This document shows positions 2,121 to 45,659 of a stretch of 64,000 nt of DNA, in pieces (positions within the stretch are counted from its first letter, which is position 1; each line of letters begins with the position of its first letter). Under the pieces are notes generated by a model that saw only the letters and a program-made list of their open reading frames with translations, ran no database searches and was not told the DNA's origin. Source of the stretch: a virus; the IMG/VR virus record IMGVR_UViG_3300031251_000001, positions 62,001 to 126,000 of that record. One strand, given 5' to 3'. A program made the translations under genes and the position numbers.

Positions 2121-2530
2121 TGCTGGTTTTCTCCTCGACCCTGCTTGAGGACCTGTTGCAGGTAATCAAGCTGGGATTGCAGCGGTCCTTGGGGGTCAGC
2201 CTGGGCGATGTCCCGGCCACGGGCCAGGGCAACACACCTATTCCAAGGATAACAGTGGCGGTGCAGAAACGCACGACGCAGTGAATCCAGCAGATCGACT
2301 TGGAGTGGCCCAGCGGTCATGTCTCCCGAGGTCCCAGGAGCGGAAGGATCGGAGACAGCTTTGGCAGTAGCGACGTTCAGATTGCTGGTATTGAGTGCCT
2401 TGGTGTAGGCGGCGGGATCGAAAACGTCTCCCTGGATGGCCGGCAGCACCCAGTCGTCTGCTTGCAGCTGCGCGCGAAGCGTCTCCATCGCTGTTTTTAG
2501 GTCAGAACTGTAGTCAACATAATCCGCCAT
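2117..2530 (-). CDS. baseplate-operon protein of unknown function
   Basis: This 137-residue protein is not recognised. It is soluble-looking and mixed helical, with a C-terminal helix (QSQLDYLQQVLKQ) and no signal peptide or membrane segment. It starts with ATG at 2530..2528, overlaps the stop of the sigma-like gene as TAATG, and shares 4 bp with the gp25-like gene. It is therefore translated from the same message as the baseplate wedge. A small baseplate or assembly role is inferred only from context. Confidence 0.7.
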   Translation of the reverse strand: MADYVDYSSDLKTAMETLRAQLQADDWVLPAIQGDVFDPAAYTKALNTSNLNVATAKAVSDPSAPGTSGDMTAGPLQVDLLDSLRRAFLHRHCYPWNRCVALARGRDIAQADPQGPLQSQLDYLQQVLKQGRGENQQ

Positions 2531-3240
2531 TATTTACTCAGGTATTGGACGCGATCGAGCATCTGCTGAATGGAACGACGACGCTGACTGATGTAACCGT
2601 CGCTGACCTTCAGCTTACGGGCCAGCTCCGAGGTGGGAAGCACGCTCTTGCCGTTGATCCCCAGCGTGTGGTCGAGGATGTGGCGGTCCATCTTGCCCAG
2701 GTCGTCTGCTACCAGGTCGATGGTGAGTGAGTGGATTGGTTTGCCGGCTGCCTCGCTGTAGATGCCGTCGTCCCCGAAGGATCCTTCTGACAGGCCGTGG
2801 TGGAAGTTCTGCATCTTGCGGACTTGCGATAAGTTGATGCCCAGGTGGTCGGCGATCTGCGAGTCGTTGGGCTCGTAGCCGTGCTCCTCCTGGAGACTGC
2901 GGGTGGCACCCATGATGGCACCGTGCAGTTGAGCGGCTCGTTCCGGGACGCGGATCAGATCGGTTTGTTTCTTGTTCTGCCGCTTGAGGCCTTGCAAGGT
3001 GTTGATGACGTGTGTGCCCAGGGCTGCCTGCTTGGGGTCGTAGTTGTCGAGGCTGCGCAGAGCCATCAGACGGGCCTGGCCCTGGAGGAGGGGGTTGTTC
3101 TGCCCAGGGACGTGGATATTGATTGCTTTGTCGATGGAGGGCTGCAAAGCGGTGAGCATCGCCTTGTTGGTGGTCGGTGACTTACCGGCCTTCCAGGCGG
3201 TATAGGGCTCGGTCAGCTCCTTTTCGAGTTTACTGGCCAT
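2530..3240 (-). CDS. sigma-70-like factor
   Basis: This 236-residue protein resembles a reduced sigma-70 family factor. Residues 50-80 (LLQGQARLMALRSLDNYDPK and following) match the end of region 2, where sigma factors have A-x-x-(K/R)-F-D-P-x-x-G-x-x-F-x-T-Y. Residues 96-145 match region 3: IRVPE, then GYEPNDSQIADHLGI, comparable to the (R/K)-E-P-T-x-E-E-(I/L)-A-x-x-L-G motif. Residues 200-230 (TSELARKLKVSDGYISQRRR) form a region 4-like helix-turn-helix. Regions 1 and most of 2.1-2.2 are missing or divergent. It is encoded between the hub and wedge genes, with TAATG overlaps on both sides. Since the phage also encodes RNA polymerase subunits, it could be the specificity factor for them. Binding to host polymerase, or a structural role kept from a sigma ancestor, are alternatives. 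Confidence 0.65.
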   Translation of the reverse strand: MASKLEKELTEPYTAWKAGKSPTTNKAMLTALQPSIDKAINIHVPGQNNPLLQGQARLMALRSLDNYDPKQAALGTHVINTLQGLKRQNKKQTDLIRVPERAAQLHGAIMGATRSLQEEHGYEPNDSQIADHLGINLSQVRKMQNFHHGLSEGSFGDDGIYSEAAGKPIHSLTIDLVADDLGKMDRHILDHTLGINGKSVLPTSELARKLKVSDGYISQRRRSIQQMLDRVQYLSK

Positions 3241-10575: not shown

Positions 10576-10595
10576 CCATGGCTCCTGGGCATGAC

Positions 10596-10613
10596 CCAAA
10601 ATACGTATTTTGG
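10596..10613. repeat. 18-bp palindromic element, copy 1 (CCAAAATACGTATTTTGG)
   Basis: This is a perfect 18-bp palindrome, 20 bp upstream of the tape measure ATG and directly after the TAA stop of the chaperone ORF. The minus strand reads TAATCCAAAATACGTATTTT, a context shared with the copies near 47.9 kb and 60.5 kb. As RNA it could form a 7-bp stem with an ACGU loop. No U-tract follows, so it is not an ordinary terminator. An operator or an RNA regulatory hairpin is possible. Confidence 0.85.
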
Positions 10614-12089: not shown

Positions 12090-12091
12090 GA

Positions 12092-23302: not shown

Positions 23303-24256
23303 TTAGTATTGGATGCGGACCAAGCCGTTGGTGTTGGCGATGACAGCACCGAAGCGCTGGTACACCGACATCCTCACGACTTCTTTATGACGCTCAATAA
23401 AGAGCATCGGCTCCGACATGTAGATATGTTTGCCCAGGCAATCTGGCTTCGCAAAATAGTAAGCCTCGCCGGTCTGCACCAGGGCCTTCTTGATGGTGAT
23501 TCGCCAGGTCAAGTCGAACAGGTTGTCCTGAACCTTGAACTCCTGGGAATAGAGACCACGCTTGGCGATCAGTTCAGCGGTGTCACCACCCCATTCCTGA
23601 CGATTCCACTTGGCCACATCGAAGAAGGTGATGTGATTGACCAGGCCCACCTTGGCGGGGAAGCTGGAGGGGGTGTCGGCCAGAGTCTTGAGAGACTCGA
23701 CCAGGGACTCACGGGAGAACCCGCCGCCCACGTCCTTGTACTGGACGGAGCCGGAAGTAGCGACCGTGCTTCCCATCGTGCCGACAGCGAACTGGCAGGC
23801 CGATGTAAAGACGGTATCTTTTTCCGCTGAAAGATCTTTCGTCATGTTATCGACGACGATCTGGCGGATGTCCATGTCGTAGGTGACGAGATCGCCAACG
23901 TCGACTTGGACTTCGGGGGTTTCCACGTGCTGAACGGTGAGGCGGTAGCGATCACCACGCAGGTAGAAGTCATCGGTGCTGGAAGCGAAGGCCATGCTGA
24001 TGGCAGCAGGGCTATCGGGTTCCATGTCGAGCACGTACCCAGGGCGTGGGTCGTCGATCGACTTGTCATACCGACCCTCGGCCTTCTCGCCGGGGATAAT
24101 GTCATCAAGATACCCGGTTTCACGGAGCATCTTGCGGATGAACGATCGGATGCCGTCTTCGGCCTTCTTGGTCCGCATCGGGTCGCCACTGAGGTAGTTA
24201 TCACGCCATTGGGCGTTTGCCTGCCTCATGTCTTCCCGAGTGTATGTCTGCGTCAT
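23303..24256 (-). CDS. major capsid protein, HK97-fold candidate
   Basis: This 317-residue protein has the layout of HK97-fold capsid proteins. It has a helical N-arm (residues 1-60), an extended-loop-like region near 105-130 (VDVGDLVTYDMDIRQIVVDN), and a long helix-containing P domain. The C-terminal strand MSVYQRFGAVIANTNGLVRI closely follows the end pattern of many capsid proteins. It is preceded by a capsid-associated gene and a scaffold candidate and followed by decoration candidates. I see no long cleaved propeptide, so maturation cleavage, if any, would remove little. Confidence 0.7.
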   Translation of the reverse strand: MTQTYTREDMRQANAQWRDNYLSGDPMRTKKAEDGIRSFIRKMLRETGYLDDIIPGEKAEGRYDKSIDDPRPGYVLDMEPDSPAAISMAFASSTDDFYLRGDRYRLTVQHVETPEVQVDVGDLVTYDMDIRQIVVDNMTKDLSAEKDTVFTSACQFAVGTMGSTVATSGSVQYKDVGGGFSRESLVESLKTLADTPSSFPAKVGLVNHITFFDVAKWNRQEWGGDTAELIAKRGLYSQEFKVQDNLFDLTWRITIKKALVQTGEAYYFAKPDCLGKHIYMSEPMLFIERHKEVVRMSVYQRFGAVIANTNGLVRIQY

Positions 24257-25389: not shown

Positions 25390-26673
25390 CTAGCGTGATC
25401 GGCGAATGATCTCTTCCGCGAGAGCCGCTGCGGCCTTCGGGGTGAGCTTGGTGACCTTGGCTGGCACCTTATCGGCTGCCATCTTGGGGGCACCTGCTGC
25501 GGGTGGAGGAGGAGCACCACCGCTGGCGTCAGCACCACCGGCTGCACCGGCATCGGGAGGAGGAGGTCCGCCGGCACCTGCGTCAGCACCGCCGCCTTGG
25601 GCGTGGGCCTGATCAAGCAACTGCTGGATTTCCTCATCGGACATGCCCTGCTGCTTGAGCAGCTGGACGATCTCTTCGTCGCTCATCTCGCCGCCTTCGC
25701 CACCTGGTGCACCGCCGCCTGGAGGGCCACCGGCTGCAGCATCAGGAGGAGGGGGACCGCCGCCACCCATGTCAGCACCACCGCCGCCACCGCCATCGGG
25801 TGGGGGAGGAGGAGCATCAGCAGCCCGCTTGGCGGGAGTGACGACCTTGGTTGCGGCAGCCGTCTTGGCTCGGGCATTCTTGGTCAACTGAGCCTTGGCT
25901 TCGGCGATCTTGTTGTCGGAAGCGATCTTGGATAAGTGCTGGCCTACCAGTTCAGCACGATCAGCACCAGCGCGAACGAACACCTCCAGAGTCTGGCGGC
26001 GATCTTCGGCGGATGCCTTCTTGCTGATGGTGCCGGCTACGGGAGCCTTGCCCTGGCCAACCTTAGCGTCACCGGCAGTCTTGGCACTCTTGCCAGCTGC
26101 GGGAGCCACTTCGATTTCACCGAGCATGTCGTTGATATCAAGCATCAGCTCACCAGCGGCCTTGTTGAAGGCAGGGTAGAGATCCTTGATGTCCATGGAG
26201 GCATACTTCTTGCCGTCCAGCTCCTCGTTGTCGACTCGCAGGGGAGTCGTGGAGCCTGGGTCCTCTTTCTTGTTGCTGAGGACGCCGGACAACTCGTTCT
26301 TGGGGTCTTCACCCGTCAGAGCGATGCTGTCGTTGGCAGCGGTGTGGTCCATGCCATTGTCCCCGGCAACCTTACCGGTGAGACGATTGATAATTTTGTC
26401 CATAGCGGTTTTATCCAGGGGTTCGACGCCAAGATCCTTGACGTCCTTGTCGTTTTCTTTTGCGTGACTTCCTTCCTCATTGGGCTGAGTCTGGTCGTCG
26501 ACGGTCTTGGAGGGACTTTCAGTTTTACCGTCCATGTTGGTTTCGGACGGCTGTGGTTCTGATTCAGCTTCCGCTTTCTTCTTCTTGACGGGAGCCACGG
26601 CAACGGCGGAAGCGGTCTTCCGGGTTGCAATGAGTTCGTCCAGCTGAGAAAGCAGCGAAGGTCGCTTGGACAT
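25390..26673 (-). CDS. low-complexity head scaffold/core candidate
   Basis: This 427-residue protein has a charged helical N-terminal half. The second half contains glycine/proline-rich stretches and an imperfect repeat, MSDEEIVQLLKQQG then MSDEEIQQLLDQA (UIM/helical type). Several K-x-A-x-D-like sites occur (SAKTAGD, SKIASDN, PKMAADK). The start at 26673 has AAGGAA upstream; the in-frame start at 26721 would overlap the preceding gene. Its place between the protease-like gene and the capsid genes fits a scaffolding or core protein, which is usually removed by the maturation protease. That role is inferred. Confidence 0.55.
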   Translation of the reverse strand: MSKRPSLLSQLDELIATRKTASAVAVAPVKKKKAEAESEPQPSETNMDGKTESPSKTVDDQTQPNEEGSHAKENDKDVKDLGVEPLDKTAMDKIINRLTGKVAGDNGMDHTAANDSIALTGEDPKNELSGVLSNKKEDPGSTTPLRVDNEELDGKKYASMDIKDLYPAFNKAAGELMLDINDMLGEIEVAPAAGKSAKTAGDAKVGQGKAPVAGTISKKASAEDRRQTLEVFVRAGADRAELVGQHLSKIASDNKIAEAKAQLTKNARAKTAAATKVVTPAKRAADAPPPPPDGGGGGGADMGGGGPPPPDAAAGGPPGGGAPGGEGGEMSDEEIVQLLKQQGMSDEEIQQLLDQAHAQGGGADAGAGGPPPPDAGAAGGADASGGAPPPPAAGAPKMAADKVPAKVTKLTPKAAAALAEEIIRRSR

Positions 26674-26717
26674 GTGGGAAGTTCCTTTTTGGTTATTGCA
26701 CCTGCGAGAGCCCGTAC

Positions 26718-28124
26718 TCATATATCTTGCGCTATTGTGCCCCGCAGCGTCAACGAGATGTCAACAGCGGAAGGGAGGTAGCGAGATAGTGCAGCGAGGC
26801 GGTAATCCACGTAATCGCTGGCGAGCTTCCTGCCTTCCGCGGTGACAGAAACGGAAGACAGGGTGGGACGACGTGGAGAAACAGACGAGCGGATGGCACG
26901 TGTGGTGTACCCGAACTCAATCCCTAACTCCCCGGCAACCTTGGACACGGTCGACGCCATATTGACGTTTTTGCTGTCAGCCTTGGCCCAGCGATCGGAA
27001 CGTGGATCATAGCTGTCGCACGTGTCGCGGGCTTCTTTGTACATATCGAACAAGCAGGATCGGGCAGCGCCGAGGTGATCGACTCGTCCGGACAAGGCGG
27101 CGAAATCGTTCAGGTTGGCGAAGATGCCACGGTCGGCCAGGGCAGCCAACTGATCAGGAAGATCACGAGCCGTGACGATCTTGCTGAGCTGAGGCAGGTC
27201 ACAATGCCATTGATAGGCGACGTGAGCCGGCATCTCTTCTTCGCTGAAGTCACACAGGAGACTGGCGATCTTGAACCGCATCTTGGATTCGGGACCCGCA
27301 TCGTTGGTCATCACCCAGGAGGGACCACGGATACCCATAAGCAGGGCCAGCTGAGCTGAGCCGATGATGCCGCCATCCGCCCGCTTCTTGGCGAAGTCGG
27401 AGATGGTGGCATAGGAGGTACGTCCAGCAGGGCGGTGGACCGTGGAGATATCCACGAAATAAGAATCAGGATTGAACACGCCCATCTGGACCATGTCATT
27501 CCCGACCTTCACAACCTGGCCAAGGTGCTCGGCACACCCGCCGCCGGGGCAGGTCGCTGCGGTACAGTAGTCCGCAGCTGTCTTGGCCTTGTTCTTGCAG
27601 ACGCCGCAGACGTCATGAGCCACGCGGGCACCCATTGAGATCGGCAGATCGTCACCAGCTTCGAGCCTGTTGATTTCGTAGCTGGCGACTTTACCCTTGT
27701 TCCGATCGGCAGCGGTCTTATTGCTGCTGAGACCGGCGAGCAGCTCGATGCGACCCATGTCGGGGTTGTGCATCGACGCCACGACTCGACCAAAGCTATT
27801 GGTAGGATCTTCGTCGTCGTGATTGCGGTACCAGCGGGCATACTTGACGAAGGTGTGGTGGCGGTCCTCGCATTCCTTGCGGGTCCAGCCATCACCCTTG
27901 CGGTTGAAGCCGGTGGTCTCGTGATCGGCGACCGCCAGGCCGTGCACCAGCAGCTCATCAGGGAAGAGCTTGGTGTTGGCGACCTTTCGCATCAGGTCAT
28001 CACTGGCGCGTTTACGGAACTCGTTCTTATCGTTGCCACGCAGGCCACGACGAGAAACTTTCACGGGGTAGAGCACTTGCTCGCCGTGAAAGTCGAAGTC
28101 CAGCGGGTCGACGATTTTGAACAT
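26718..28124 (-). CDS. prohead protease-like protein with a cysteine cluster
   Basis: This 468-residue protein resembles the large head-maturation-associated proteins of some myophages. Features are a DHETTGFNRKGDGWTRKE block, HHTFVKYARWYRNHDDED, GRVVASMHNPDMGRIELLAG, then ISMGARVAHDVCGVC and a C-rich site CGVCKNKAKTAADYC followed by CPGGGC. The first blocks resemble the (D/N)-x-(N)-G-D-x-(W/F) and H-x-x-x-(D/N)-x-D-P signatures of prohead protease-like proteins. I cannot assign the catalytic residues, and the cysteines may bind zinc. Gene order (before scaffold and capsid genes) supports this. The K-x-A pattern occurs six times here. An alternative is a non-catalytic head protein. Confidence 0.45.
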   Translation of the reverse strand: MFKIVDPLDFDFHGEQVLYPVKVSRRGLRGNDKNEFRKRASDDLMRKVANTKLFPDELLVHGLAVADHETTGFNRKGDGWTRKECEDRHHTFVKYARWYRNHDDEDPTNSFGRVVASMHNPDMGRIELLAGLSSNKTAADRNKGKVASYEINRLEAGDDLPISMGARVAHDVCGVCKNKAKTAADYCTAATCPGGGCAEHLGQVVKVGNDMVQMGVFNPDSYFVDISTVHRPAGRTSYATISDFAKKRADGGIIGSAQLALLMGIRGPSWVMTNDAGPESKMRFKIASLLCDFSEEEMPAHVAYQWHCDLPQLSKIVTARDLPDQLAALADRGIFANLNDFAALSGRVDHLGAARSCLFDMYKEARDTCDSYDPRSDRWAKADSKNVNMASTVSKVAGELGIEFGYTTRAIRSSVSPRRPTLSSVSVTAEGRKLASDYVDYRLAALSRYLPSAVDISLTLRGTIAQDI

Positions 28125-32035: not shown

Positions 32036-34477
32036 TTAGTTGGAAGTTGACTCAGTCAGCTCCGGGGAAGAGGCAGCGGACAGGTTGAACCCGTTGCTGC
32101 CGCCTACCGACTTCTCCTTGAGATAGAGAGTCGTGTCGCCCAGCGAGGTGAAGGTGTTGCGAACACCGTCTTCGAGCTGCGGCATATCGGAGCTGCCGTA
32201 CCGCTCGGAGAGGGCTTCGTAATTGTTGTAGATGTGGAACAGGGTGCGACCGAGGCCGTCGATGGCACTCATGTACCGGCCCAGGAAGCGATCGACCATC
32301 GTCTCGGTGTCGGTGGTGTTAGCCAGGGCCACGAGCACGCCGATGTCGAACAGATCCTTCTGACCCGATGCCGAGGCCTGCTGTGCCAAGTTCAACATCT
32401 TGCTGTCAGGAGAGAACCACTGGTCCTCGCTGTAGTATTGGCCTGGGTCAGGGTGCACCATGTCCTGGACGGGGACGGCTTCACGCTGACGGTAGGTAGC
32501 ATCGATCGTACGTGGGCCGACCTGCTCGGTGCCGGTCCAGGGATCGGGGATCTGTGGTGAGTAGTTGCTGTTGGCCCCGTCCGCCTGCTTGATCAGGCAA
32601 TTGACGTTCTGGGTCTCGCGAGCCTTGGCGGTCAGGTCGCGGGCTTCCTTCTCCCGCAGGCCGCCACGCAACATGAGGTCAATCACGACTTCACGGTCGC
32701 GGACGAAGCTGGCCGACTTGCTGTTGAGCTTGACCTCGAACTTCTCGCCGTCGTGGAAGAGAGAGCACTTGGCGTACTTCTTCTGGATCGAAGAGAGTAC
32801 GTGTTCGATGTTGCCGATGTCGGGAACCTTGCCATCCTTCCAGCGGTCATCCTCGGATCGCTGTTCCAGCTTCACCAAGGTAGCGCTTTCGGGGATGGAG
32901 ACCCAGCCACGACCGCTCATGATCTTACGGCCAGGCTGACCCAGGCTGAAGTCGATGTTGCAGTCGGACATCATGATCGGTTGCGGGCTGAAGGTCTTGG
33001 TGTCGTCGACACCCAGGCGGGCGGTCTGGTATTCACGCCAGTCAGCGGTGAACCGCTTATCGTTGGTCTTGGCGGTCACGATGAACGGCAAGGTGGAGTT
33101 CAGGTTGTCGTCGACCGCGATATAAATGCCGTTGATTGATACGTCAGTGGTACCGTTGCTCTTGAGCCATTTGCGGAGTCCAGCACGAGCACTGATATCG
33201 TCTTCCAGGATCGTGTCAATGTGGCTGTCCGGACGGGCGAGGACTTCGTTGGTCGGGAATCGGCCATACTGTTCCTTCTCCTTGGGGTTGATGACCAGCG
33301 TGCCGCTGGTGTTACGACCGGGGGAGGCCTTCACCGAGGTGAGGATTACCATGTCCTGGAACTCACCGTCGCGCATGGCCGTCTCGTAAACGCCGGCACT
33401 GTTGGGAGAGAGGACCTCGTTATTGATGTCTTCGGCGACCTTGTTCACTTCGGCGTCGACGCGGTTGTCGATCGCCACGAACCCATCGCGAGCAAACTTC
33501 CGCTTGCTCGACTCGTCCATATCGTAGACCGACTCCATCGTCCGCAGCACATTGACCTTGGCGCTGGGGTGAGCAGGTGTCTCATCGGAGAAGAGTGAGC
33601 CCAGACCAGCTGACTTCTTGTTGAACTTGAAGCGGGCCGGCCACTGGAGAATGGCAGCGTAGGGATTGAGCTGCGGGAAGAGCGACGGTTTGAGGTTATC
33701 CGACAGGATGTCGCCGGCGGTCTTCTTGTGGGCGACGGCCAGCTCGGTGATCATGTCCGGCCCGTACCAGGTATCCAGACCACGCTTGATGAGCGGGTAG
33801 GTATTGGCCAGGTGATTCAGCTTGATCAGGAAAGTTGGGTCGGCCGCAGCTTCCTTGCGTAGGTCAAACGGGCCGCTCCAATCAGCGGTCTTACGATGTG
33901 ACCGTTCAGGAGCCAGTTCGGCAGCGGCAAACAGAGGCAGGATGGGCTCTGTCCAGGCAGCGAACTTGTGGCCGAAGAACTGCGGCGTGAAGAGACGGCG
34001 GAAGCTGGGCTTGCGACCACCCAGATCCTGGTAGCTTCCCTGTGAGGGTTCGCCGATTTCGGTGGGCTGGCGGTTGATGAGGAAGGTGACCCAGTTCTCT
34101 TTACAGGGCAGGAAGTTGTCACGGTTCTTGACCCACAGGAGCTCGTGGCCCTTGAGATCTCCCTGGAGGAAGAAGACAGGGACGAAGAGCCAGAGGTCAT
34201 CGACCTTGAAGCCGAAGACGCCGACCGCCTTGGAGCGAGCAGGATCGTCGACCCGCTTGATGGTCTGGAAGCCGATGGCGTAGTCGATGAGCTGTGGTGC
34301 TCGACTCTTGATGTACTGGTGGGCCAGTGACGAGAACGACCGCTCGAAGTCATCCGTACCGGGGTTATCGTCGGCACGCTTGGGGCGAGCGATGATCTCT
34401 CGCAGATCGTCAGCACGGGCATTGGATACCCAGTATTGTCCGACGTCCGACTGCTTCGCCTGGAAGATCGATCGCAT
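32036..34477 (-). CDS. large virion protein of unknown function
   Basis: This 813-residue protein starts at ATG 34477..34475, eight bases after AGGAG; an ATG at 34483 is only two bases from that site and is less likely. It contains an N-terminal domain with VFGFKVDDLWLFVPVFFLQG and WVTFLINRQP, a middle region with HRKTADWSG and HKKTAGDILSD, and a helical C-terminus. It is not a recognisable portal or terminase: the usual portal stem helices and TerL Walker motifs are absent. Head location is inferred from neighbours. It could still be a divergent portal. Confidence 0.55.
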   Translation of the reverse strand: MRSIFQAKQSDVGQYWVSNARADDLREIIARPKRADDNPGTDDFERSFSSLAHQYIKSRAPQLIDYAIGFQTIKRVDDPARSKAVGVFGFKVDDLWLFVPVFFLQGDLKGHELLWVKNRDNFLPCKENWVTFLINRQPTEIGEPSQGSYQDLGGRKPSFRRLFTPQFFGHKFAAWTEPILPLFAAAELAPERSHRKTADWSGPFDLRKEAAADPTFLIKLNHLANTYPLIKRGLDTWYGPDMITELAVAHKKTAGDILSDNLKPSLFPQLNPYAAILQWPARFKFNKKSAGLGSLFSDETPAHPSAKVNVLRTMESVYDMDESSKRKFARDGFVAIDNRVDAEVNKVAEDINNEVLSPNSAGVYETAMRDGEFQDMVILTSVKASPGRNTSGTLVINPKEKEQYGRFPTNEVLARPDSHIDTILEDDISARAGLRKWLKSNGTTDVSINGIYIAVDDNLNSTLPFIVTAKTNDKRFTADWREYQTARLGVDDTKTFSPQPIMMSDCNIDFSLGQPGRKIMSGRGWVSIPESATLVKLEQRSEDDRWKDGKVPDIGNIEHVLSSIQKKYAKCSLFHDGEKFEVKLNSKSASFVRDREVVIDLMLRGGLREKEARDLTAKARETQNVNCLIKQADGANSNYSPQIPDPWTGTEQVGPRTIDATYRQREAVPVQDMVHPDPGQYYSEDQWFSPDSKMLNLAQQASASGQKDLFDIGVLVALANTTDTETMVDRFLGRYMSAIDGLGRTLFHIYNNYEALSERYGSSDMPQLEDGVRNTFTSLGDTTLYLKEKSVGGSNGFNLSAASSPELTESTSN

Positions 34478-34492
34478 GCTCATAGCTCCTGA

Positions 34493-34939
34493 CTATTTGA
34501 CTAGCCCAGCTGCTTGAAACAGCCTGTTGTATTGTTGGTCTTCCTGGTCCACCGCGGGGCCAGTCTGTTCACCCGTGCCGTAGTAGGAGGGGATGTTCTT
34601 CCCGTTCCAGGCTTGGGGGTTCTGATTTTTACCCAGGTAGCCGGCAGTACCCGCTGCACCGATGATGCCGGCGCCAGCCGCCCATGGCTTCCAGCTCTGG
34701 CCGCCTGTTGCGGGGGCAGGCGCTGGCGGTACTAAGCTACCGACCGTTGCTCCAGCGGGAGCTGGTTTGGCCATGGGCGGGGCGTGAGCAGCGAGAGGAG
34801 GAGCATGTGCCGCCATCGGCGGGGCGAGCTTGGCTACGGGAGCGTGAGCTCCCAGACCCAACGCGGGCTTCACCATCGGCAACTTAATGCGTGGCGGACC
34901 TGCGAGCTTCCTCAATCGACTTTGAATCAGACTGTCCAT
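34493..34939 (-). CDS. small proline-rich protein with a glycine-zipper membrane segment
   Basis: This 148-residue protein starts at ATG 34939 (AAGGA five bases upstream), not 34978. Residues 30-80 are a proline/alanine repeat (HAPPMAAHAPPLAAHAPP-type). They are followed by a membrane-like AAGAGIIGAAGTAGYLG segment and a polar tail. It sits between the large virion protein and the beta-prime C gene. It may be another internal or membrane-active virion protein. Confidence 0.55.
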   Translation of the reverse strand: MDSLIQSRLRKLAGPPRIKLPMVKPALGLGAHAPVAKLAPPMAAHAPPLAAHAPPMAKPAPAGATVGSLVPPAPAPATGGQSWKPWAAGAGIIGAAGTAGYLGKNQNPQAWNGKNIPSYYGTGEQTGPAVDQEDQQYNRLFQAAGLVK

Positions 34940-34993
34940 GAACATCCTTGTTCGGTGGTTAAGTCCACTATACACCAATGGCCGACGTTACGT

Positions 34994-37900
34994 CTAACTC
35001 TTGACGGCCTTCTTTTCGTCTTCGATCTTGGTGTTCAACTCTTGCTGTCGAGCCAACAGTTTCGGGTCGTTCGGGGTCGCGGCCAACTGTTTGTCCAGTT
35101 GAGCCCGTTCTGAGTGATAGCTCTTCATCTTAGCCAGGGCATGGAATTGACCCCATTCGAGGTTTTCCGGAGCCTGGTTGAGACGTTGTACGTACTCCTG
35201 GCTGTTAGGAGATTTCTCCACATCGGCGTCCCGCAGCAGGGCCTTGCTGAGGGTGGAAGCACTGAAGGAGGAAGGATTCGTCAGCTCCTGCTCGGTACTC
35301 TTGACGACCTTGTTGATGTCGATGAGCTGACCCTGCAGCTTGGCGTACTCGGCCTGGGGCAGTGGGTTCTGACCGGAGTCGGACATCTGCAGCTGGGAGC
35401 GGATGTCAGCTCGCTGCTGCAGCTTGTCCCCGACTTCCTTCTCCACGTCGGCGAAATCGTTAGGCCGGGCCTTGGTCGCCAGGTTGGTGCGGAACTCCGA
35501 CAACTCCATGTCAGCCTTGCCGCGATTGTTCCGCATCACCTGTTTCTGGGCTTCAGCGACGTCGGGGTTGTTCAGAGCCTCATCGGTCTTACGCTCAAAG
35601 TATTGCTTGGAGAAGTTAGTGCTGTCTTGCACGCCTTTGACGTACTGATCATGTTGACCGCTGATCTGGGCAGCAGCACGGGCTGAGGTGACCGGAGTCA
35701 TGGCGGCGCCAAGCATACCCTTGGCTCGTGTTAATCCGGAGTCAGGCGTACCCAGAGCAGGGCTGCTCTGTTCGAGCTGCTGGGCACGGTTATTGATGTC
35801 TTCTTGGCTGACGGTACCCAGCAGGTTCTTGCCAGCGTCCACGAGAGCAGGAGCAGCAATCATGCCGGCACCGAGCGGAGCTACACCGGAGATAGCACCC
35901 TCCAGGGTGTTCTCAACGACGTCTTTGGTCTCAAGCGGATTGCCGGCAGCCAAGTCGTAGATCATGCCTGCCGTCGAGCCGCCGACGCCGCCCATTGCTC
36001 CACCCCGGATCATGCTCTTGGGACCGAGGGTCTTACCCAGGGAACGACCTACCGCGACCTGGGTGCCGTTCTGGGCAATCTGGTTACCGATCCAATTGGT
36101 GGTAGAGTTGCCTTCCGGAGCCTGGGCAAAATCAGCCGGCGGTTGCTCCGCTGCCGACTCGTGCTCAGGGTACTGCTCAATTTGCTGTTGTGGTTGCTGA
36201 CGTGGAGGTCCCCATTGGTGCTGGACGCCATATTGTTCCAGACCGGGTTGCTGATATTGAGGTCGCATTTGCGGAGGCAGTTGCGGAGCAGGGAACGGAG
36301 ACTGGCCTTGCTGCGGTTGCTGGGCCTGGTGAGCCGCCATACCCGCCATCGGCGTGTATTGGTTGCTACTGTTGAAGCCGGGCTTCGGCATGTTGTTCTT
36401 GGGAGCACCAGCGCTGTAGGGATTGTGCTGTCCCTGCCCTGGCGGCTTTTCCCAGGGGACTTCGGGTGGCTTCACCGGATCCAGCGGGCTGATCTGGCTT
36501 CGGCTTGGATCGGGCTCGAAGTCGGCGGTCTTGTCGAACGCTTTATCGAAGGAGTCTTTGTAGCCCGGCGTGCAGTTCTTACACTCACTCGACGGGATGT
36601 CATAGACTGGCACCGCACCCATCGATCGAGGGCCGTGGCAGGGTTTACGACAGCCCTCGCAGTAATGGTACTGAGGGCGTGGCCCCTTGTACCAATGCTC
36701 TTTGCCGCCGTGTGTCACGAGATAGTGAGTATCTGTGTCACGAGAAGTATCAGGATCGTGTGTGTCACTGGCTACCTTGGGCAACGGTTTGCCTTCAGGT
36801 GGGAGCTCGACCGGCTTGCTCTTGTGTTGGAAGTAGCCTTCGCGGCCGAAGTCAGCAGCATGGGCCAGGCTCGGCACAAAACTGGTACCGGTTCGGTCGC
36901 TGACCGCACCCCGGTGAACCGAAGCCAGGAGACCCTTGCTCAGGTTCGAGCCGTACATGCGGGTGATCGGGTCGGGATCGTGCAGCAGGTTATCACTGGC
37001 TCGCACCATCTCGAAGTTGAACGGTGGTGGCTGGTCGTGGACGTGGACCTCATCGAGTTTGAGATCGTCCATCTCTTTGGCCATCTTGGGCGTCACCTTC
37101 ACACCGATCGTGTGGTGCAGGATCGGCGATTCCAGGTACTTCCCGATGGCCTTCTTGGGGTGGAGACGTTGCCCGCCCTCACGGGGTTCGTACGCCGCCT
37201 CGATCATGTGGTAAGGGACGACATCGTCCGGGATGTAGTCACCGACAAAGTCGTTGAGCCTGACGTGATTGATGAGGCCACGGCTGATGAGTTCCAGGTT
37301 ACGGCGATCGGCTCGCATGTTCTGGCTCTTGGCCAGATCCATCATCGTGTTGGTCCAGTAGCGACGGCCCTCACCGATGCCTTTGTGCATCGTGATCTTT
37401 TCGGGGTTGGGGATGCCGTTGGAGAGCGTATCGCCGGCCTCGACGGAATCACCAACCTTGACCGTGGCTGCTTGCTCCGGAGCTACGTAGTGGCGATTGG
37501 AGCCGACCCAGACGTAGCTACCGCCGGCAGGTGCCTTCTGGATACGTTGCACCGTGCCGTCAGCGACAGCGTGAGCAGCTCCGCCCTGGAAGGTGCTCGG
37601 GATCTGTGCCATCTGCTCGAACGACTTAAAGCCGGAGACAGCGACTTGACCGGCCACGCCGCCGGTGTGCTTAGAGTTGAGACCCATCTGGGTGACGGGC
37701 TCACTGACACCCTGGGAGGTGGTCATCCCTGGCATGTCGCCACGCTGCACCAGGTGCCCGTTTTCATCGAGACCTACGTCGTAGGCGTAGACGCCACCGT
37801 CAGGGCTGCTGCGGGCGATGGGGGAGCGGACAACCAGCTTCTTATGCCCGCCACGGTCGAGAGAGTCCAGGATCTTCTGCGTGATGACCGTATTGGCTTT

Positions 37901-38695
37901 GAACGGGCCGGTATCGCGGGCGAGGAGTGCCCCCACGCTTCCTTTATCGGATACGTCAACGGGAAGGCCCCGAAGGTACTGCTTGCGATCTTTAACGTGT
38001 TCGTCATCATCGGACACGTCGGTATCGACGACCACATTCCGGTGGGAGACTTGGTTAAGTAGTTTGTTGTAGTATCCAGCATTGGCCACCCCCAGCTTGA
38101 CGTCCACGACTCCCTTGCGGGCACCGAAGAGGCTGGCGTGATATTCAGGGTAAGACAACCCTTGTGAGTAGCTACGGTACACCGGCAGGAGCAGCGGGTT
38201 GTCCTGGTTATCGTTGTACTGCAGATCGCCGCCGACCAGGCTGTTGTAGTTGGCTTTGTTGCCGCGAGCTCCGGAGTGGATCTGCATCGCCAGAGGGTTC
38301 TTGGCGGCAATACCTTCATCGTAGACCTCGCTGTTCTGCTGTTGCTGAGCAGCCGAGGTGAGTTCGATAATCTTCTTCTTGCGTGTTTCGGGGGATAGGC
38401 CGGCGTGAAGTACCCGTTGGATCTGGGTATCGAGCTTGGCTTGGATACGCTGGGCCGTGGGGCTCTTGCGCATGTGCTCCAAGTCGAAGGAGTAACCTCC
38501 GGTGGACTGGGCGTGGAAGCGACCGATGTCCGAGAGTTTCTTGCTGACGTCGACGTACTGGTCGGGGTGCCGCTGAGCGACCTCCCGTAGTAACGTCTCA
38601 AGGCCCTTCTTGTCGAGCACCCGCGTGTAATCGCGGAGATCGGCAGGAAGGGCCATGTTAGCCTTGAGCTGGCCAGCGGTTGTTCTGATTGGCAT
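34994..38695 (-). CDS. RNA polymerase beta-prime subunit, C-terminal part, with long extension
   Basis: Residues 1-630 of this 1,233-residue protein are the C-terminal half of a multisubunit RNA polymerase beta-prime. It begins RTTAGQLKANMALPADLRDY, homologous to the segment after the active-site loop. NPLAMQIHSGARGNKANYNS (about 133-152), then the trigger loop GARKGVVDVKLGVANAGYYN (191-210), follow. VRSPIARSSPDGGVYAYDVG and EPVTQMGLNSKHTGGVAG (289-349) correspond to the region near the C-terminal clamp. After about residue 640 comes a part with no polymerase similarity. It has four cysteines near 677-705 (CEGC, CKNC), a P/Q-rich linker (about 740-870), a glycine-zipper segment (GGAMGGVGGSTAGM) and coiled coils. 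Its partner is the beta/beta-prime-N gene, three genes upstream. Confidence 0.85.
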   Translation of the reverse strand: MPIRTTAGQLKANMALPADLRDYTRVLDKKGLETLLREVAQRHPDQYVDVSKKLSDIGRFHAQSTGGYSFDLEHMRKSPTAQRIQAKLDTQIQRVLHAGLSPETRKKKIIELTSAAQQQQNSEVYDEGIAAKNPLAMQIHSGARGNKANYNSLVGGDLQYNDNQDNPLLLPVYRSYSQGLSYPEYHASLFGARKGVVDVKLGVANAGYYNKLLNQVSHRNVVVDTDVSDDDEHVKDRKQYLRGLPVDVSDKGSVGALLARDTGPFKANTVITQKILDSLDRGGHKKLVVRSPIARSSPDGGVYAYDVGLDENGHLVQRGDMPGMTTSQGVSEPVTQMGLNSKHTGGVAGQVAVSGFKSFEQMAQIPSTFQGGAAHAVADGTVQRIQKAPAGGSYVWVGSNRHYVAPEQAATVKVGDSVEAGDTLSNGIPNPEKITMHKGIGEGRRYWTNTMMDLAKSQNMRADRRNLELISRGLINHVRLNDFVGDYIPDDVVPYHMIEAAYEPREGGQRLHPKKAIGKYLESPILHHTIGVKVTPKMAKEMDDLKLDEVHVHDQPPPFNFEMVRASDNLLHDPDPITRMYGSNLSKGLLASVHRGAVSDRTGTSFVPSLAHAADFGREGYFQHKSKPVELPPEGKPLPKVASDTHDPDTSRDTDTHYLVTHGGKEHWYKGPRPQYHYCEGCRKPCHGPRSMGAVPVYDIPSSECKNCTPGYKDSFDKAFDKTADFEPDPSRSQISPLDPVKPPEVPWEKPPGQGQHNPYSAGAPKNNMPKPGFNSSNQYTPMAGMAAHQAQQPQQGQSPFPAPQLPPQMRPQYQQPGLEQYGVQHQWGPPRQQPQQQIEQYPEHESAAEQPPADFAQAPEGNSTTNWIGNQIAQNGTQVAVGRSLGKTLGPKSMIRGGAMGGVGGSTAGMIYDLAAGNPLETKDVVENTLEGAISGVAPLGAGMIAAPALVDAGKNLLGTVSQEDINNRAQQLEQSSPALGTPDSGLTRAKGMLGAAMTPVTSARAAAQISGQHDQYVKGVQDSTNFSKQYFERKTDEALNNPDVAEAQKQVMRNNRGKADMELSEFRTNLATKARPNDFADVEKEVGDKLQQRADIRSQLQMSDSGQNPLPQAEYAKLQGQLIDINKVVKSTEQELTNPSSFSASTLSKALLRDADVEKSPNSQEYVQRLNQAPENLEWGQFHALAKMKSYHSERAQLDKQLAATPNDPKLLARQQELNTKIEDEKKAVKS

Positions 38696-40634: not shown

Positions 40635-43600
40635 CTACCCCTTGTCTTGCAAAATCTCGACCTCATCGTGAGGATCGATGGTTCTTTGTTCTAACGCTTT
40701 TAGCACATCCTGGATGTTGCGGAAAGTACGCAACGGACGTTTGCTCTTATTGGATGTTAGCTCATAGAGCCCACCCACGTACTCCTGTGACGGCATGGCC
40801 ACTGGTGTTTTACGGTCAGTCGGGCTGATCAGGTGCTTGCTGGGGAGCATGCGTTCGTAGGTCTCTTTTGCCGCCTCTTCGGTGGCGGGCACGTGGAACT
40901 GCGAGGCGTCGCCATCGAAGTCCATGTTGAAACCCTTGAGCACCAGCGTGGGCACGTGGACGGCGTTGCCGGCCACCAGCTGCGGACGGAAGCCCATATA
41001 GCCCAGTTTGTGGAGCACCGGGGCGCGATTCATTTGGACCGGCTTTTGATCCATGACGCGGAGAAGGGAGCGGTGTGCCTCGTCATCTTGTTGGTTGATC
41101 GATTCCATGGCGTTAGCCACCGTACGACCGCGGCGAACCATGTCACGAACGATCTCTTTCTTGTAGACATCGAACGCCAATCGCTTGGGGATACCGATCT
41201 GGTCCATGTTCAAGTCAGGGTTGGGCACCACTACCGAGCGACCAACCTGGTCCACGGCGGAGCCAATGAGACGCCGTTGAACCGTGCCCATTTTAGGATT
41301 GCTTCCAAAGATATGCTGCAGAACTCCCCGTACGTTGCGCTCCTTGGACTTCTTTGTAACAGGATCTCCAAGACCCGTGACTGCCTTGAGAGCGTTGTAG
41401 AGGGTGAGATGTTCTGGTCCGACGTAGTCATCGCCCATCTCCTTGTGGAAGTCCTTCACCGCTTCGTTGGCGGAGTGGAGTTCTTTATAGAGCGGGTTGG
41501 CGTCAGCCACCATAGGAACACCTGAGCCGCCCAGTGTCGAGATGCGACGGTAAGCAGGTGGGATCACTGGGGCGGACTTCAGGGTCCAATCGCGTGGGTG
41601 CATGCCCACACGTTTGGTGTCCATCATGTAGTACAGCTTCCGAATCGCTTCATCCCGCTTGGTCTTACTACCCGACTGAAATGCTTGTTTAGCCGTCGCA
41701 ATCTCATGGTCGAGGTTAATACCTTCCAACGCTTTGACGATCGCATCAGGGCCTGTCTTGCCATTCAAGTGCTCCTTCCCGGCCAGGATGTCCTCGAACT
41801 TGCCTTGCGTCAGACCGAGGACTCGTTTGACCGGGTCTTCCATGACCGGGTTGACGAGAGGAGTAACGAGAGGAATCTTCGACCACTTCATGCCGCCATG
41901 TCCACCGGTGATCTCCGGATCGAACAGGCCACCGGGAACGGGGTCCAGGGCTTCACCTGATTTGACCGTCTCGGCGTTCTTGAGGGTGCGACCCTCAGCC
42001 AGATCCTCGACTGACTTGTTAGTCATCGCCAGGAAGTGCGTACGCTTGCCGTCCGGCACGGGATCGATGCCAGCTGCCCGGAGTTGGGCCAGATATTTCT
42101 GGTAAACGGTGGTCGTGTGCGGCTCGACCGGCTTCTGTCCACGCTGATATTGCAGCCAGTAAGTGTCATTACGCTGGCCACGAACCAGGCCCGCATCGCG
42201 GAGGACTTCATAAGCACCGTGGGAAAGGATGGCGTTCACATCCAGGAGCGAGACGCGCTTGGAGTTGGAGACGTGAGCACCGTTCTTGAGGTAGTAGCTG
42301 GCACCGTCTTCGACCGTGATGTCGTAGACCTTCTCACCGGGCCTCTTGAACCGGGTGTAGATGGTGGCGACTACGAGCGTGGCCGGCCCATAAAGGCGTT
42401 GTGAACTTTTCCGAGGAAACCGCTCATGGCCCCGGTAAAGGTCTGTCCGATCGACGTCCGCATCCGCCGAACCAAGTCGGCGGTCGGCTTTGGACCTGGC
42501 TGGTCGAGCTTCTTGAATATGCTTTGCGTCCTTTCGGGCGTGAAGGCTGGTAAGACGTACGGTCGCTGCGGGGCAGCGGCTTCCTGGCCATCGATAGGGG
42601 CGGACTGCTGAGTGGGGTCCATCGCAATAAATCTCCTGACCGGGCTGCAGCAGATTAGCAGCGATCTTCGTGTCGTGGATAAAGAACTCGTGACCGGGGG
42701 TGCATTCCACCACGGAACCATCGGTGAAAGTGATGACCACCAAGTAACGGGGAGCATCGTACTCCATCCAATCGGTGATCTCGCGGTAGACCGGAATCAT
42801 GTTCTCGTTGAGCAGGACCTTCGTGGGAACGCGAACGGCTTTCCGCTTCTTGACAATCTCACCGATCGTGTCGGAACCGAACTCGGTCCACAGCTTGGTC
42901 GTCCCGACAAAGCAGCCACCGTAACCACCCTTGGCCGGCTCGTCATCCTGGTTATAGGCCCCGCTCGAGCGGGCCTGTCCCTTGGATTCCGAAGTGTGAT
43001 GCAGTTTCATCATGAAGCGGGTGCCGGTCGCCACGCCGGGGATCTTCTGTCCTGTCTCGGGATCGGTGATCTCTTCCGAGAGCTTCATGCCGTGTTTGCC
43101 CAACTCGTTGCGGACGTACTCGTCGTGATCTTGCCCAGTGAAATCCTTCACCAGGTAGGGTTGACCTGTCTTGCGGGCGATCTTCCCCAGGCCGAGCTCG
43201 TGGGCCTGGGCAGCGTTGGTGCGGGAGATCATGCCGTTGGGGCTGAGCAGTAGCTCGAAGGGGTTGCCGTCTTTGTCGTGCGGCATCTGGCTGTCAGGAA
43301 GGATCTTCGAGATCACCCCCTTATCACCGAAACGCCCTGAGAGCTTATCCGCCTCTACAGTCGGGTGGTAGGATTTGACGATGACGACGGGGCCTTTCTT
43401 GCCCTGCTGCACGTCCACGACTTCACCATCGTGGTCATGGTCCCAGGCGACCGAGGCGTCCTGCCAGGAGTCCGACTTGCGTCGCAGGAGGCGGTTGGGA
43501 TTCATGCCCTTCTGCTTGGCGGCGACGATGAGTGGCTGACCGTGGGTGACCTTCTGGCCGACCTTGATGACGCCAGTGTCGTCCATCTTGCCGAGCTGCT

Positions 43601-45659
43601 CACGAGTGAAGCGGCCAGGGAACAGATCAGAGAAGGCCTGGCGGCCCTGCTTGGTCTTGTTGTCGACCTCCAGCTCGTGCTGGTAGGCGTGCTCTGAAGT
43701 CATCTTCCTGGCAAGAGAATCCGAGATGACCACGGCGTCGTTGTGATTAAGGCCCTTCCAGGGGACGTAGGCGGAGTAAGCATTGATGCCCATCGCCATG
43801 GTCCCGTGCTGATCGGTATAGTTGCTGCCGGCGAGAAGCTGACCCTTCTGTACGGTGCTGCCTTCCTGGACAATGGGTTCCTGGTTGAGCAGGGACTTAC
43901 GGTTGAAGGGCAGGTTCTTGTAGTAGGGCTTGATGCTGGTCGTGCCGTCCGGGTGCTGCATGTGGATTTCATCTTCCGTCACCTTCGTCACACGACCAGG
44001 CTTATCGGCCGCGACGGCTCCAAAACGATGACCCAACCATTGTTCGTAGGGCTGGTTGGTCTCCTCGTCCACGTTCTGTACGTGAGGAGCCTCGCGATGC
44101 TGGAGGGATAGCGCCTGCATGTACATGCGGGCACCCATGGAGTTTCGCTGTCCCTTGTTGGAGCTCTGGAACGGGATGGTGTTGGTCAGCGGGCTGAAGT
44201 TACGCGACCCGTGCGGGGAGACATAATCCAGCTCGGACTTCTTGGCATAGTCGAGCTCACCGTTGCGGATCACCGGCACATAATCATTCTTCGATTCCAT
44301 CGACTTGTAGAAGCCGATCGTCTTGCCGGCCAGGTCCTGGGGCGATCGCCACAGCTTCTTGCCGCTCTTGGGATCGATGAACTGGCTGTAGAGCCTGCCG
44401 TCGCTGCCTTTGCGTGAAGCAACGCTGGCAGAGAGATCGACGCCGGCCCGTTCCGATTCCGGTGTCTTGACGACATCAAGGAAGCCCAGGTGCGAGTTCT
44501 GCACCGAGCGGGCCTCCAGCGGGATGGCAGCTCCGGAGATGCCACCCTCACCCATGCGGGTGACGTTATGCAGGCGGTCAGCAAACTCAGAGGTATTGAT
44601 TTCTTCCAGGGGCTGGGCGACGCCGCTGCGCAGCAGGACGTGATCCAGTTGATGGGTCAGGGCACCCGAAGGCATGTGCTGCAGGTGGCCCGCTTTGGAC
44701 ATCTTGTAGAGGAGTTTCTTCTGCCAACCCTCAGAATCCTTGGCGATACGCTCGGCAAAGAGGTCTTCTGGCCCCAGGAACTTCTGATACTCGAGCGCGT
44801 CACGATCATCGGGTTTGGCCTCGCCCCGGTTGATCTTGATCAGCTTACTGGTGGCAGCCAGGAGCACGTCCTTGTTGAGCGTGGGGCTGACGTTGCCGAT
44901 CGTGCTCTTGTTGACGAACGGATTGACCTTGTAGCCCTGATACTTCTCGACGAGCTTGGCGATACGATCGACGCCCGGTGCCGCCAGCTCTTCTTTGGAG
45001 AGTAGCTTGTGAGACAGTCGATCAAGTGCGTCACGTTCCTTGACCCCGCGGTTGGACTGGGCGATCTCTTTGCCCCAGTGGTGTTCGATCTCGTCGTCCT
45101 TGGCTCCCATGGCGGTCAGCAGCGGCAGGAGGGGTGCGGTGGATCCGGCGATGTTGAGATGGAAGGTGCCCTTGTCGGGATCGAAGCCGATGCGGTGCGT
45201 CAGGCCTTCACCAGGAAGGATATTGAGGTAAGTCTCCAGTTCGCCGTTACCTTTGCGTCGGTTGTAGACGCCCGGTTCGAGACGCTGTTGGTTACGAACG
45301 GCGTACTTGGTCCCGTTACGCACGACGGTCCCGAAGTCGCTAAAGTGTGGCACGGTGGCAACGACTTGCTTGCGGGAGTCAACCATCTTGTCGGTGGCAT
45401 TGTCGTAGAGCTCCCACGTCCCTTCGACACGCCGGCCCAGCGATCCACGCGAGAGGATGGCCTTCTTGACCTCGCTGGGCTTGCGGTATTCAGGGTCGAT
45501 ATATTTGGGGTTGGTGAGCTTGAGCGTGTGCGTGCGATTCTTCACCGGGGGCAGATTCTGCATAGCACCGAGCACGTTGCCGTACACGTTTTTACGCAAC
45601 GCCCCAGTATCGCCGAACTCACGGAGGGTCACTCCCTCCGGGACTCCATCGAGATCCAT
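40635..45659 (-). CDS. RNA polymerase beta fused to N-terminal part of beta-prime, with intein
   Basis: This is a 1,674-residue precursor. The first about 1,250 residues, less the intein, are a beta subunit. The catalytic lysine motif is KLSGRFGDKGVISKILP (about 772-788, both lysines present), followed by PNGMISRTNAAQAHE. The C-terminal beta motif is interrupted by a 217-residue intein (916-1132). Beta-prime then starts in the same chain (GLFDPEI, SAPVIPPAYR, VDQVGRSVVVPNP). The active-site loop NMDFDGD (residues 1578-1584) keeps all three metal-binding aspartates. The chain ends shortly after, near the PSQEYVGGLYELT block, and beta-prime continues in a separate gene at 34994-38695. The beta-prime N-terminal zinc site is absent. 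ATG 45659 follows GGAG. Beta/beta-prime fusions and split beta-prime genes are known separately in bacteria and jumbo phages; the encoded enzyme is presumably active. Confidence 0.9.
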   Translation of the reverse strand: MDLDGVPEGVTLREFGDTGALRKNVYGNVLGAMQNLPPVKNRTHTLKLTNPKYIDPEYRKPSEVKKAILSRGSLGRRVEGTWELYDNATDKMVDSRKQVVATVPHFSDFGTVVRNGTKYAVRNQQRLEPGVYNRRKGNGELETYLNILPGEGLTHRIGFDPDKGTFHLNIAGSTAPLLPLLTAMGAKDDEIEHHWGKEIAQSNRGVKERDALDRLSHKLLSKEELAAPGVDRIAKLVEKYQGYKVNPFVNKSTIGNVSPTLNKDVLLAATSKLIKINRGEAKPDDRDALEYQKFLGPEDLFAERIAKDSEGWQKKLLYKMSKAGHLQHMPSGALTHQLDHVLLRSGVAQPLEEINTSEFADRLHNVTRMGEGGISGAAIPLEARSVQNSHLGFLDVVKTPESERAGVDLSASVASRKGSDGRLYSQFIDPKSGKKLWRSPQDLAGKTIGFYKSMESKNDYVPVIRNGELDYAKKSELDYVSPHGSRNFSPLTNTIPFQSSNKGQRNSMGARMYMQALSLQHREAPHVQNVDEETNQPYEQWLGHRFGAVAADKPGRVTKVTEDEIHMQHPDGTTSIKPYYKNLPFNRKSLLNQEPIVQEGSTVQKGQLLAGSNYTDQHGTMAMGINAYSAYVPWKGLNHNDAVVISDSLARKMTSEHAYQHELEVDNKTKQGRQAFSDLFPGRFTREQLGKMDDTGVIKVGQKVTHGQPLIVAAKQKGMNPNRLLRRKSDSWQDASVAWDHDHDGEVVDVQQGKKGPVVIVKSYHPTVEADKLSGRFGDKGVISKILPDSQMPHDKDGNPFELLLSPNGMISRTNAAQAHELGLGKIARKTGQPYLVKDFTGQDHDEYVRNELGKHGMKLSEEITDPETGQKIPGVATGTRFMMKLHHTSESKGQARSSGAYNQDDEPAKGGYGGCFVGTTKLWTEFGSDTIGEIVKKRKAVRVPTKVLLNENMIPVYREITDWMEYDAPRYLVVITFTDGSVVECTPGHEFFIHDTKIAANLLQPGQEIYCDGPHSAVRPYRWPGSRCPAATVRLTSLHARKDAKHIQEARPARSKADRRLGSADADVDRTDLYRGHERFPRKSSQRLYGPATLVVATIYTRFKRPGEKVYDITVEDGASYYLKNGAHVSNSKRVSLLDVNAILSHGAYEVLRDAGLVRGQRNDTYWLQYQRGQKPVEPHTTTVYQKYLAQLRAAGIDPVPDGKRTHFLAMTNKSVEDLAEGRTLKNAETVKSGEALDPVPGGLFDPEITGGHGGMKWSKIPLVTPLVNPVMEDPVKRVLGLTQGKFEDILAGKEHLNGKTGPDAIVKALEGINLDHEIATAKQAFQSGSKTKRDEAIRKLYYMMDTKRVGMHPRDWTLKSAPVIPPAYRRISTLGGSGVPMVADANPLYKELHSANEAVKDFHKEMGDDYVGPEHLTLYNALKAVTGLGDPVTKKSKERNVRGVLQHIFGSNPKMGTVQRRLIGSAVDQVGRSVVVPNPDLNMDQIGIPKRLAFDVYKKEIVRDMVRRGRTVANAMESINQQDDEAHRSLLRVMDQKPVQMNRAPVLHKLGYMGFRPQLVAGNAVHVPTLVLKGFNMDFDGDASQFHVPATEEAAKETYERMLPSKHLISPTDRKTPVAMPSQEYVGGLYELTSNKSKRPLRTFRNIQDVLKALEQRTIDPHDEVEILQDKG
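42264..42914 (-). other. intein in the beta subunit
   Basis: This is a 217-codon in-frame insertion between GGYGG and SKRVSLLDVNAILSHGAY, inside the conserved beta motif GGQRFGEMEVWALEAYGA. It begins with Cys (CFVGTTKLWTEFGSDTIGEI, block A), has TPGHEF (block B, T-x-x-H) and VYDITVEDGASYYL (block F), and ends HVSN followed by Ser (+1). The residue before the terminal Asn is Ser instead of the usual His. There is no LAGLIDADG or HNH endonuclease, only an about 80-residue linker. Residues essential for splicing appear present, so it should be removed from the polymerase. Confidence 0.85.
42371..42622 (-). CDS. nested ORF inside the intein linker, 83 codons, different frame
   Basis: It starts at ATG 42622..42620, ten bases after AGGAG (42637..42633), and ends at TAG 42373..42371. 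The encoded peptide begins MDPTQQSAPIDGQEAAAPQR and has an amphipathic C-terminal half (TADLVRRMRTSIGQTFTGAM, SGFLGKVHNAF). By hand count, third positions are about 72% G+C in this frame but about 53% in the intein frame over the same bases. The first value matches real genes here. The intein frame across this stretch looks like an untypical R/P-rich sequence. It may be a separate overprinted gene. Alternatively, a linker once read in this frame is now bypassed by two compensating frameshifts. Confidence 0.5.
   Translation of the reverse strand: MDPTQQSAPIDGQEAAAPQRPYVLPAFTPERTQSIFKKLDQPGPKPTADLVRRMRTSIGQTFTGAMSGFLGKVHNAFMGRPRS

Follow-up and report, generated by a model that had tools for sequence, protein, structure and literature searches.

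RNA polymerases are found in the virions of several kinds of phage. In the phiKZ-like phages 201phi2-1 and SPN3US, a multisubunit polymerase resides in the head. The virion beta subunit of 201phi2-1 has a 275-residue propeptide that is cut off by the prohead protease, which provides a precedent for cleavage, and in SPN3US the equivalent N-terminal region is not removed (PMC5694885). All five SPN3US polymerase subunits are needed for any of them to enter the prohead (PMC5694885). The N4 virion RNA polymerase (Schitoviridae) is a giant protein with extra non-polymerase domains that is both packaged and ejected. It has been counted among the polyvalent proteins, mosaic, multidomain proteins whose enzyme or effector domains vary and for which packaging and injection have been proposed (Iyer et al. 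2017, PMC5512222). In Thermus phage P23-45, gp96 is a virion polymerase that has homology to those of cells and is fused to another virion protein.

Closest to the locus described here are Salmonella phage Arash and the Vibrio phages D69, D148 and D181. They have the same fusion of beta with the N-terminal part of beta' (beta-beta'N) and the same separate beta' C-terminal subunit (beta'C), which are gp206 and gp216 in Arash, as well as the same head-block synteny and a sigma-factor homologue, at 24-31% identity. Arash is the only experimentally characterized member of the group that we found. In its virion proteome, gp206 ranks first with 3516 spectra and gp216 fifth with 1210, beside 1333 spectra for the capsid protein gp226 and 467 for the sigma factor gp10; the preparation also held non-structural enzymes, to which its authors attach a carry-over caveat (PMC10585845).

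The polymerase genes and their likely packaging

The window, i.e., the whole stretch of DNA analyzed here, is 64,000 nucleotides long and corresponds to bases 62001-126000 of a 214,229-base virus record. Coordinates below are those of the window, with (-) for the minus strand, and L numbers designate relatives. The head-gene block, on the minus strand at about 22.9-50.1 kb, holds both polymerase genes. The beta-beta'N fusion (40635..45659, -; 1674 aa) matches Pfam Rpb2_6 (1.2e-48) and Rpb1_2 (9.8e-24) as well as Arash gp206 (E 1e-197), and it has the DxDGD catalytic motif in the form NMDFDGD. Its partner, beta'C with a C-terminal extension (34994..38695, -; 1233 aa), matches Pfam RNA_pol_Rpb1_5 (1.3e-19), PHROG 25354 and, by tblastn against isolated phages, Arash gp216 as well as proteins of D69, D148 and D181. 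The beta'C polymerase core, which carries the trigger-loop motif SEPVTQMGLNSKHTGG, comprises residues 1-620 (36836..38695, -), as judged from alignment with Arash and D69. The window polymerase sequences match cellular beta/beta' chains in the PDB at 1e-52 (phmmer) and 7e-72 (profile), and on these matches the enzyme is a cellular-type (two-barrel) multisubunit RNA polymerase close to the bacterial ones. It is the single multisubunit polymerase set in the 214-kb record, which may itself be a fragment.

Other features of the set were seen in passing. A 217-aa intein occupies residues 916-1132 of beta-beta'N (42264-42914, -), and intein-sized insertions are present in the polymerase genes of many relatives, including L015 (in the beta'C trigger loop), L203 and L208. 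In L007, a 380-aa ORF right after beta'C (11953-13095) appears by eye to be intein-like with a homing-endonuclease part. Arash and D69 retain the beta' zinc-site cysteines, which have been lost from the window beta'C (36836-38695) and from most nearer relatives. The beta' split point is near that between cyanobacterial gamma and beta'; in the window phage, beta and the gamma-like part form one polypeptide.

In the baseplate module, the product of 2530..3240 (-) is a sigma-factor homologue (Pfam Sigma70_r3, 6e-7) that matches the Arash virion sigma factor gp10 (E 3.6e-14), with the same baseplate context. Moreover, the gene order of the head block is conserved between the window phage and Arash-type relatives. 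By analogy with Arash, the window polymerase is likely packaged in the virion. An earlier note on this DNA had proposed a virion polymerase from the presence of the extension. That conclusion is supported, but the argument for it fails: packaging needs no extension, because the Arash beta'C (606 aa), which lacks one, is the fifth most detected virion protein.

Boundary and make-up of the extension

In the alignment with Arash and D69, beta' homology stops at residue 617 of the window protein. The terminal "...FG...G-R-Y*" of the relatives aligns with "...FGREGYF..." of the window protein, and since the C-terminal ends of the relatives align there, we place the start of the extension at about residue 621, about the position of the ancestral stop. 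The extension, residues 621-1233 plus the stop codon (34994..36835, -), is absent from Arash and from most relatives. It had been correctly recognized in the earlier note but was taken to start at residues 640-666 rather than near 621 (about base 36835), so that the range given for it, 34994-36700, covered residues 666-1233 only and not the whole extension. Codon-position GC follows a coding pattern across the entire extension, and domain and homology searches detected no known domains or homologues for it. We also considered, and rejected, translation of the extension as a product of its own from an internal start: no Shine-Dalgarno-like site precedes the internal ATGs near the junction, and the sole such site before an internal ATG is at residue 1063.

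The first recognizable element is a cysteine cluster at residues 679-708 (36572..36661, -), which is a possible zinc site. It had been described as a four-cysteine site, but five cysteines are present (679, 682, 686, 705 and 708; CxxCx3C...CxxC), and these are every cysteine in the 1233-aa protein. We do not favor the idea that this cluster stands in for the lost beta' zinc site, since extension-less relatives lost the site too. The P/Q-rich linker that had been reported was confirmed at residues 730-895 (36011..36508, -), where the composition is 17% P and 17% Q. As to the glycine segment that follows, residues 896-1000 are indeed Gly/Ala-rich (17% G, 15% A), and residues 895-955 (35831..36013, -) include one membrane-like stretch, with a hydropathy maximum of 1.71 in the 19-residue stretch at residue 934. 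However, its likeness to neighboring proteins is compositional only: homology with them was rejected, as alignment scores were within 2.1 SD of shuffles. Toward the end of the protein (residues 987-1233; 34997..35737, -), single-sequence AlphaFold2 predicts long helices at about 987-1232, with low confidence for the extension overall (pLDDT 48) and values of 73-94 in some C-terminal helices; the coiled coils proposed earlier are plausible here but unproven. By its make-up, the extension is most like a membrane-active ejection protein. Directly downstream of beta'C lies a gene for a small Gly/Pro-rich protein with one K-L-A-G site (34493..34978, -).

Extensions among relatives

A first scan yielded 39 relatives, all of them extension-less, and the extension was taken to be private to the window phage. 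A second scan, which used an alignment from a closer clade, extended to nearer relatives and overturned this view, yielding six more distinct viruses with long extensions in a set from which records very near the window phage's own may be missing. The tails of these viruses (L166, L167, L170, L176, L189 and L195) are 523-765 aa, and identity is 49-54% in the best segment. The L202 tail is 101 aa, and most other relatives end 2-44 residues past the match. We found no isolated phage with a long extension. In a quick tree of the core, a single clade (SH-aLRT 91) unites the window phage, the viruses with long extensions and L171, which has none. The presence of an extension requires 3 changes on that tree, against 7.4 with shuffled labels, and none of 500 shuffles was as low.

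Although the cores align, the extensions show no homology to one another beyond marginal, composition-driven matches. What they share is make-up: a P-rich linker, few K-x-A sites and a Gly/Ala hydrophobic stretch, the last found in all long extensions (best 19-residue mean, 1.03-1.71). One of them, in L170 (L170:7768-10122), scores above the Pfam cut-offs for two enzymes, an ATP-dependent DNA ligase and a LigD-type 3'-phosphoesterase, and this module has a K-x-A site on each side. A stand-alone ligase gene is found elsewhere in the record of the window phage (G000:159291-159887).

Downstream of beta'C, L168 and L169 have separate genes for P-rich, Gly-rich products that look like virion proteins; in several other relatives the homologue of Arash gp218 comes next. 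The earlier note had considered its virion reading to be at odds with homologues in which the extension is a separate, non-virion gene. Most homologues have no extension and one clade has long ones, a pattern that leaves the virion reading standing.

Another insertion was noticed in beta, where L045 has a 119-aa domain with no assigned family (L045:10790-11146), shared with L046, L048, L061 and L067. In this clade, which comprises five distinct sequences, the insert has K-x-A at both ends (P about 0.01 per sequence, for four tested sequences that are not independent).

The K-x-A motif and the predicted head protease

In the 23 head-module proteins, K-x-A-x-D occurs 42 times, against 3.9 expected and a maximum of 10 in 500 within-protein shuffles. 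There is no excess in 18 tail proteins (1 against 1.8 expected) or in 199 ORFs from the rest of the record (18 against 11.6 expected; maximum, 24). In the corresponding loci of relatives, K-x-A-[SADEG] is mostly enriched two- to three-fold, and in 17 of 20 such loci the count is above all 200 shuffles. Within the window, six K-x-A-x-D sites lie in a candidate scaffold or internal protein, designated from its position and motif count (25390..26721, -), and five in the homologue of the Arash virion protein gp218 (32036..34483, -). Propeptides of capsid proteins are usually cut near the N-terminus. The window major capsid protein (23303..24256, -), a homologue of Arash gp226 (E 1.5e-21), has K30-x-A32 near its N-terminus, and this motif is invariant in the alignment.

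The head maturation protease is predicted, from PHROG, BFVD and alignment, to be the product of 26718..28124 (-). Eighteen of the 19 members of its family match phrog_18299, "head maturation protease", and its predicted structure (model pLDDT 59) matches BFVD prohead proteases, down to E 4e-7. The same model gave no PDB fold match at E <= 0.001, and the protein has no match to PF04586 (Peptidase_S78). In a search of eight genome records, phrog_18299 gave no match, nor did its controls. Across 21 homologues, with 22-31% identity to the window protease, His102, Ser163 and an N-terminal K38-x-A40 are invariant. From the overrepresentation of the motif among head-module proteins and its invariance in both capsid protein and protease, we infer that K-x-A is the cut signal of the head protease of this lineage.

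The earlier note had placed two K-x-A-x-D motifs at the junction of core and extension. The first, PKVASDT, does contain one: K-V-A-S-D at residues 640-644 (36764..36778, -), a predicted head-protease site. It is the sole K-x-A-x-D in both polymerase polypeptides and lies 20 residues beyond the ancestral end, so that a cut-site motif is found at the boundary of the putatively removable region. The second, DKTADFE (residue 722), reads K-T-A-D-F and fits K-x-A-[SADEG] only; it supplies a second K-x-A site, K-T-A-D, at residues 722-725 (36521..36532, -). Taking the seven extensions together, K-x-A-[SADEG] lies within 70 residues of the join in five (shuffle mean, 0.97; rotation P = 0.0005), and any K-x-A is found near the join in six (rotation P = 0.001). 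In L176 the first K-x-A is 134 residues from the join, and L195 has K-R-A-Q only. The proposal that the head protease cuts off the extension is thus strengthened by the motif enrichment, by the invariant K-x-A of capsid protein and protease, and by the K-x-A at the join in related extensions, and cleavage of the window beta'C is plausible on these motifs. A site need not be used, however, because SPN3US leaves its equivalent region uncut.

K-x-A sites were also noted in other enzymes. Arash-like beta carries one at its extreme N-terminus (MPKSAS), where a cut would remove five residues only. In the window, the product of 48954-50105 (-) joins an inorganic pyrophosphatase (PF18823, residues 19-134) to a HAD-like domain and has K-x-A-x-D at its N-terminus and between the domains. 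It may be a further packaged enzyme that the head protease cuts. The PF18823 family has been linked to phage polyvalent proteins (PMC5512222).

A candidate passenger and its alternatives

We consider that these results tip slightly toward a packaged, sigma-using polymerase with a fast-evolving passenger as cargo on beta'C, probably cut free in the head. The polymerase subunits of the window phage would assemble and then enter the prohead, and the passenger, being fused to beta', would ride in on the polymerase. The head maturation protease would, from the motif statistics, probably cut after A642 and perhaps after A724, the exact position within K-x-A being supposed. A cut after A642 would leave a beta'C of 642 aa, about its size in passenger-less relatives (about 600-670 aa), and cuts at both sites would release two fragments, one cysteine-rich and the other containing the Gly/Ala segment and the helices. 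The polymerase, the sigma factor and the freed passengers would then be ejected, such that a polymerase packed in the capsid would enter the host with the DNA.

Alternatively, the extension might stay attached, as an anchor in the head or the host membrane or as a silencer until entry, with the K-x-A sites unused or serving to target the protein to the capsid. Domains of this sort are retained elsewhere: in the N4 polymerase, the C-terminal domain is autoinhibitory and the N-terminal domain is probably membrane-spanning (PMC12633501), and the SPN3US virion beta keeps a long N-terminal region (PMC5694885). The Gly/Ala hydrophobic stretch of every long extension would suit an anchor as well. We nevertheless regard this alternative as unlikely, if a serious contender. 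The K-x-A sites cluster at the join, and capsid protein and protease both carry the motif at invariant positions; the extension sequences are unconserved, which is unexpected for a regulator of a conserved enzyme; and a DNA ligase, as in L170, is neither an anchor nor an inhibitor.

It is also conceivable, and in our view quite improbable, that the enzyme is a non-virion polymerase that transcribes late genes during infection, with the extension in a regulatory or scaffolding role. The record has one polymerase set, so a non-virion role would be available to it, and the enzymes in the Arash preparation could be carry-over, as its authors point out; yet in the Arash particle no protein, the capsid protein included, was detected more than the polymerase homologue (PMC10585845). 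Moreover, the window genes lie in the head block, in conserved order, and the protein bears motifs of the head-protease type. A neutral or accidental origin of the extension, by read-through or fusion and without any function, is scarcely credible: L171 lacks it within the clade and the sequences are unconserved, but open frames of 523-765 codons run past the core in six further distinct viruses, the codon pattern of the window extension is that of coding sequence, and L170 has a ligase domain there.

The preferred reading, a passenger brought into the head on the polymerase and cut free, could be generalized. The beta' C-terminus might serve this lineage as a general carrier for interchangeable fused proteins, such as ejection proteins or a DNA ligase with a phosphoesterase, that would enter the prohead along with the assembled enzyme and be released there by the protease, making beta'C in effect a capsid-matured polyprotein for effector delivery. 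We offer this tentatively and would sooner doubt than assert it. The beta insert of the L045 clade, with K-x-A at both ends, would be a parallel.

If passengers are indeed loaded and cut in this way, a bacterial-type RNA polymerase would be both an injected enzyme and a delivery vehicle, and K-x-A would be a sequence-readable code for the head contents that are packed and cut in this phage group, which is environmentally common and almost unstudied. The loading and maturation of injected enzymes in large phages would become testable by one virion proteome.

Comparison with known systems

The polymerase of the window phage differs from each of the described virion polymerases. The phiKZ-like phages split beta and beta' at other points and have two polymerases per phage, whereas the window phage has one set, close to the bacterial enzymes. 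Their propeptide is N-terminal, and in SPN3US the cut sites are of the A-x-E type; the window protein has a C-terminal extension, and the cutting motif that we would name for it, K-x-A, is a different one. The N4 enzyme is a single-subunit, T7-type polymerase that is packaged unprocessed (PMC5512222), in contrast to the two-barrel subunits of the window phage. By the sequence features tested, then, the window polymerase is neither phiKZ-type nor N4-type. In P23-45 gp96, the polymerase is at the N-terminus of the tail tape measure, whereas here the extension is on beta'C, the gene belongs to the head module, and predicted protease sites are present. The polymerase genes are separate from ORF 6175-10599 of the tail module, whose length makes it a tape-measure candidate.

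The Arash-type polymerases are the nearest counterparts, and they differ from the window enzyme in three respects: beta'C ends at 606-609 aa in Arash and D69 and is extended in the window phage, the window beta'C is without the cysteines of the beta' zinc site, and the window beta has an intein. Of these counterparts, the Arash polymerase has been detected experimentally in virions. Compared with the polyvalent proteins, the window phage has its candidate passenger attached to one subunit of a cellular-type enzyme built of several subunits, and head-protease sites are predicted where the two meet. The paper that described the polyvalent proteins does not use the term "DNA ligase" (PMC5512222). 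By analogy, the window protein may work like a virion polymerase with a region processed by the head protease and, at the same time, like a polyvalent protein. New in this comparison is a C-terminal, interchangeable and non-homologous candidate passenger on a bacterial-type phage polymerase.
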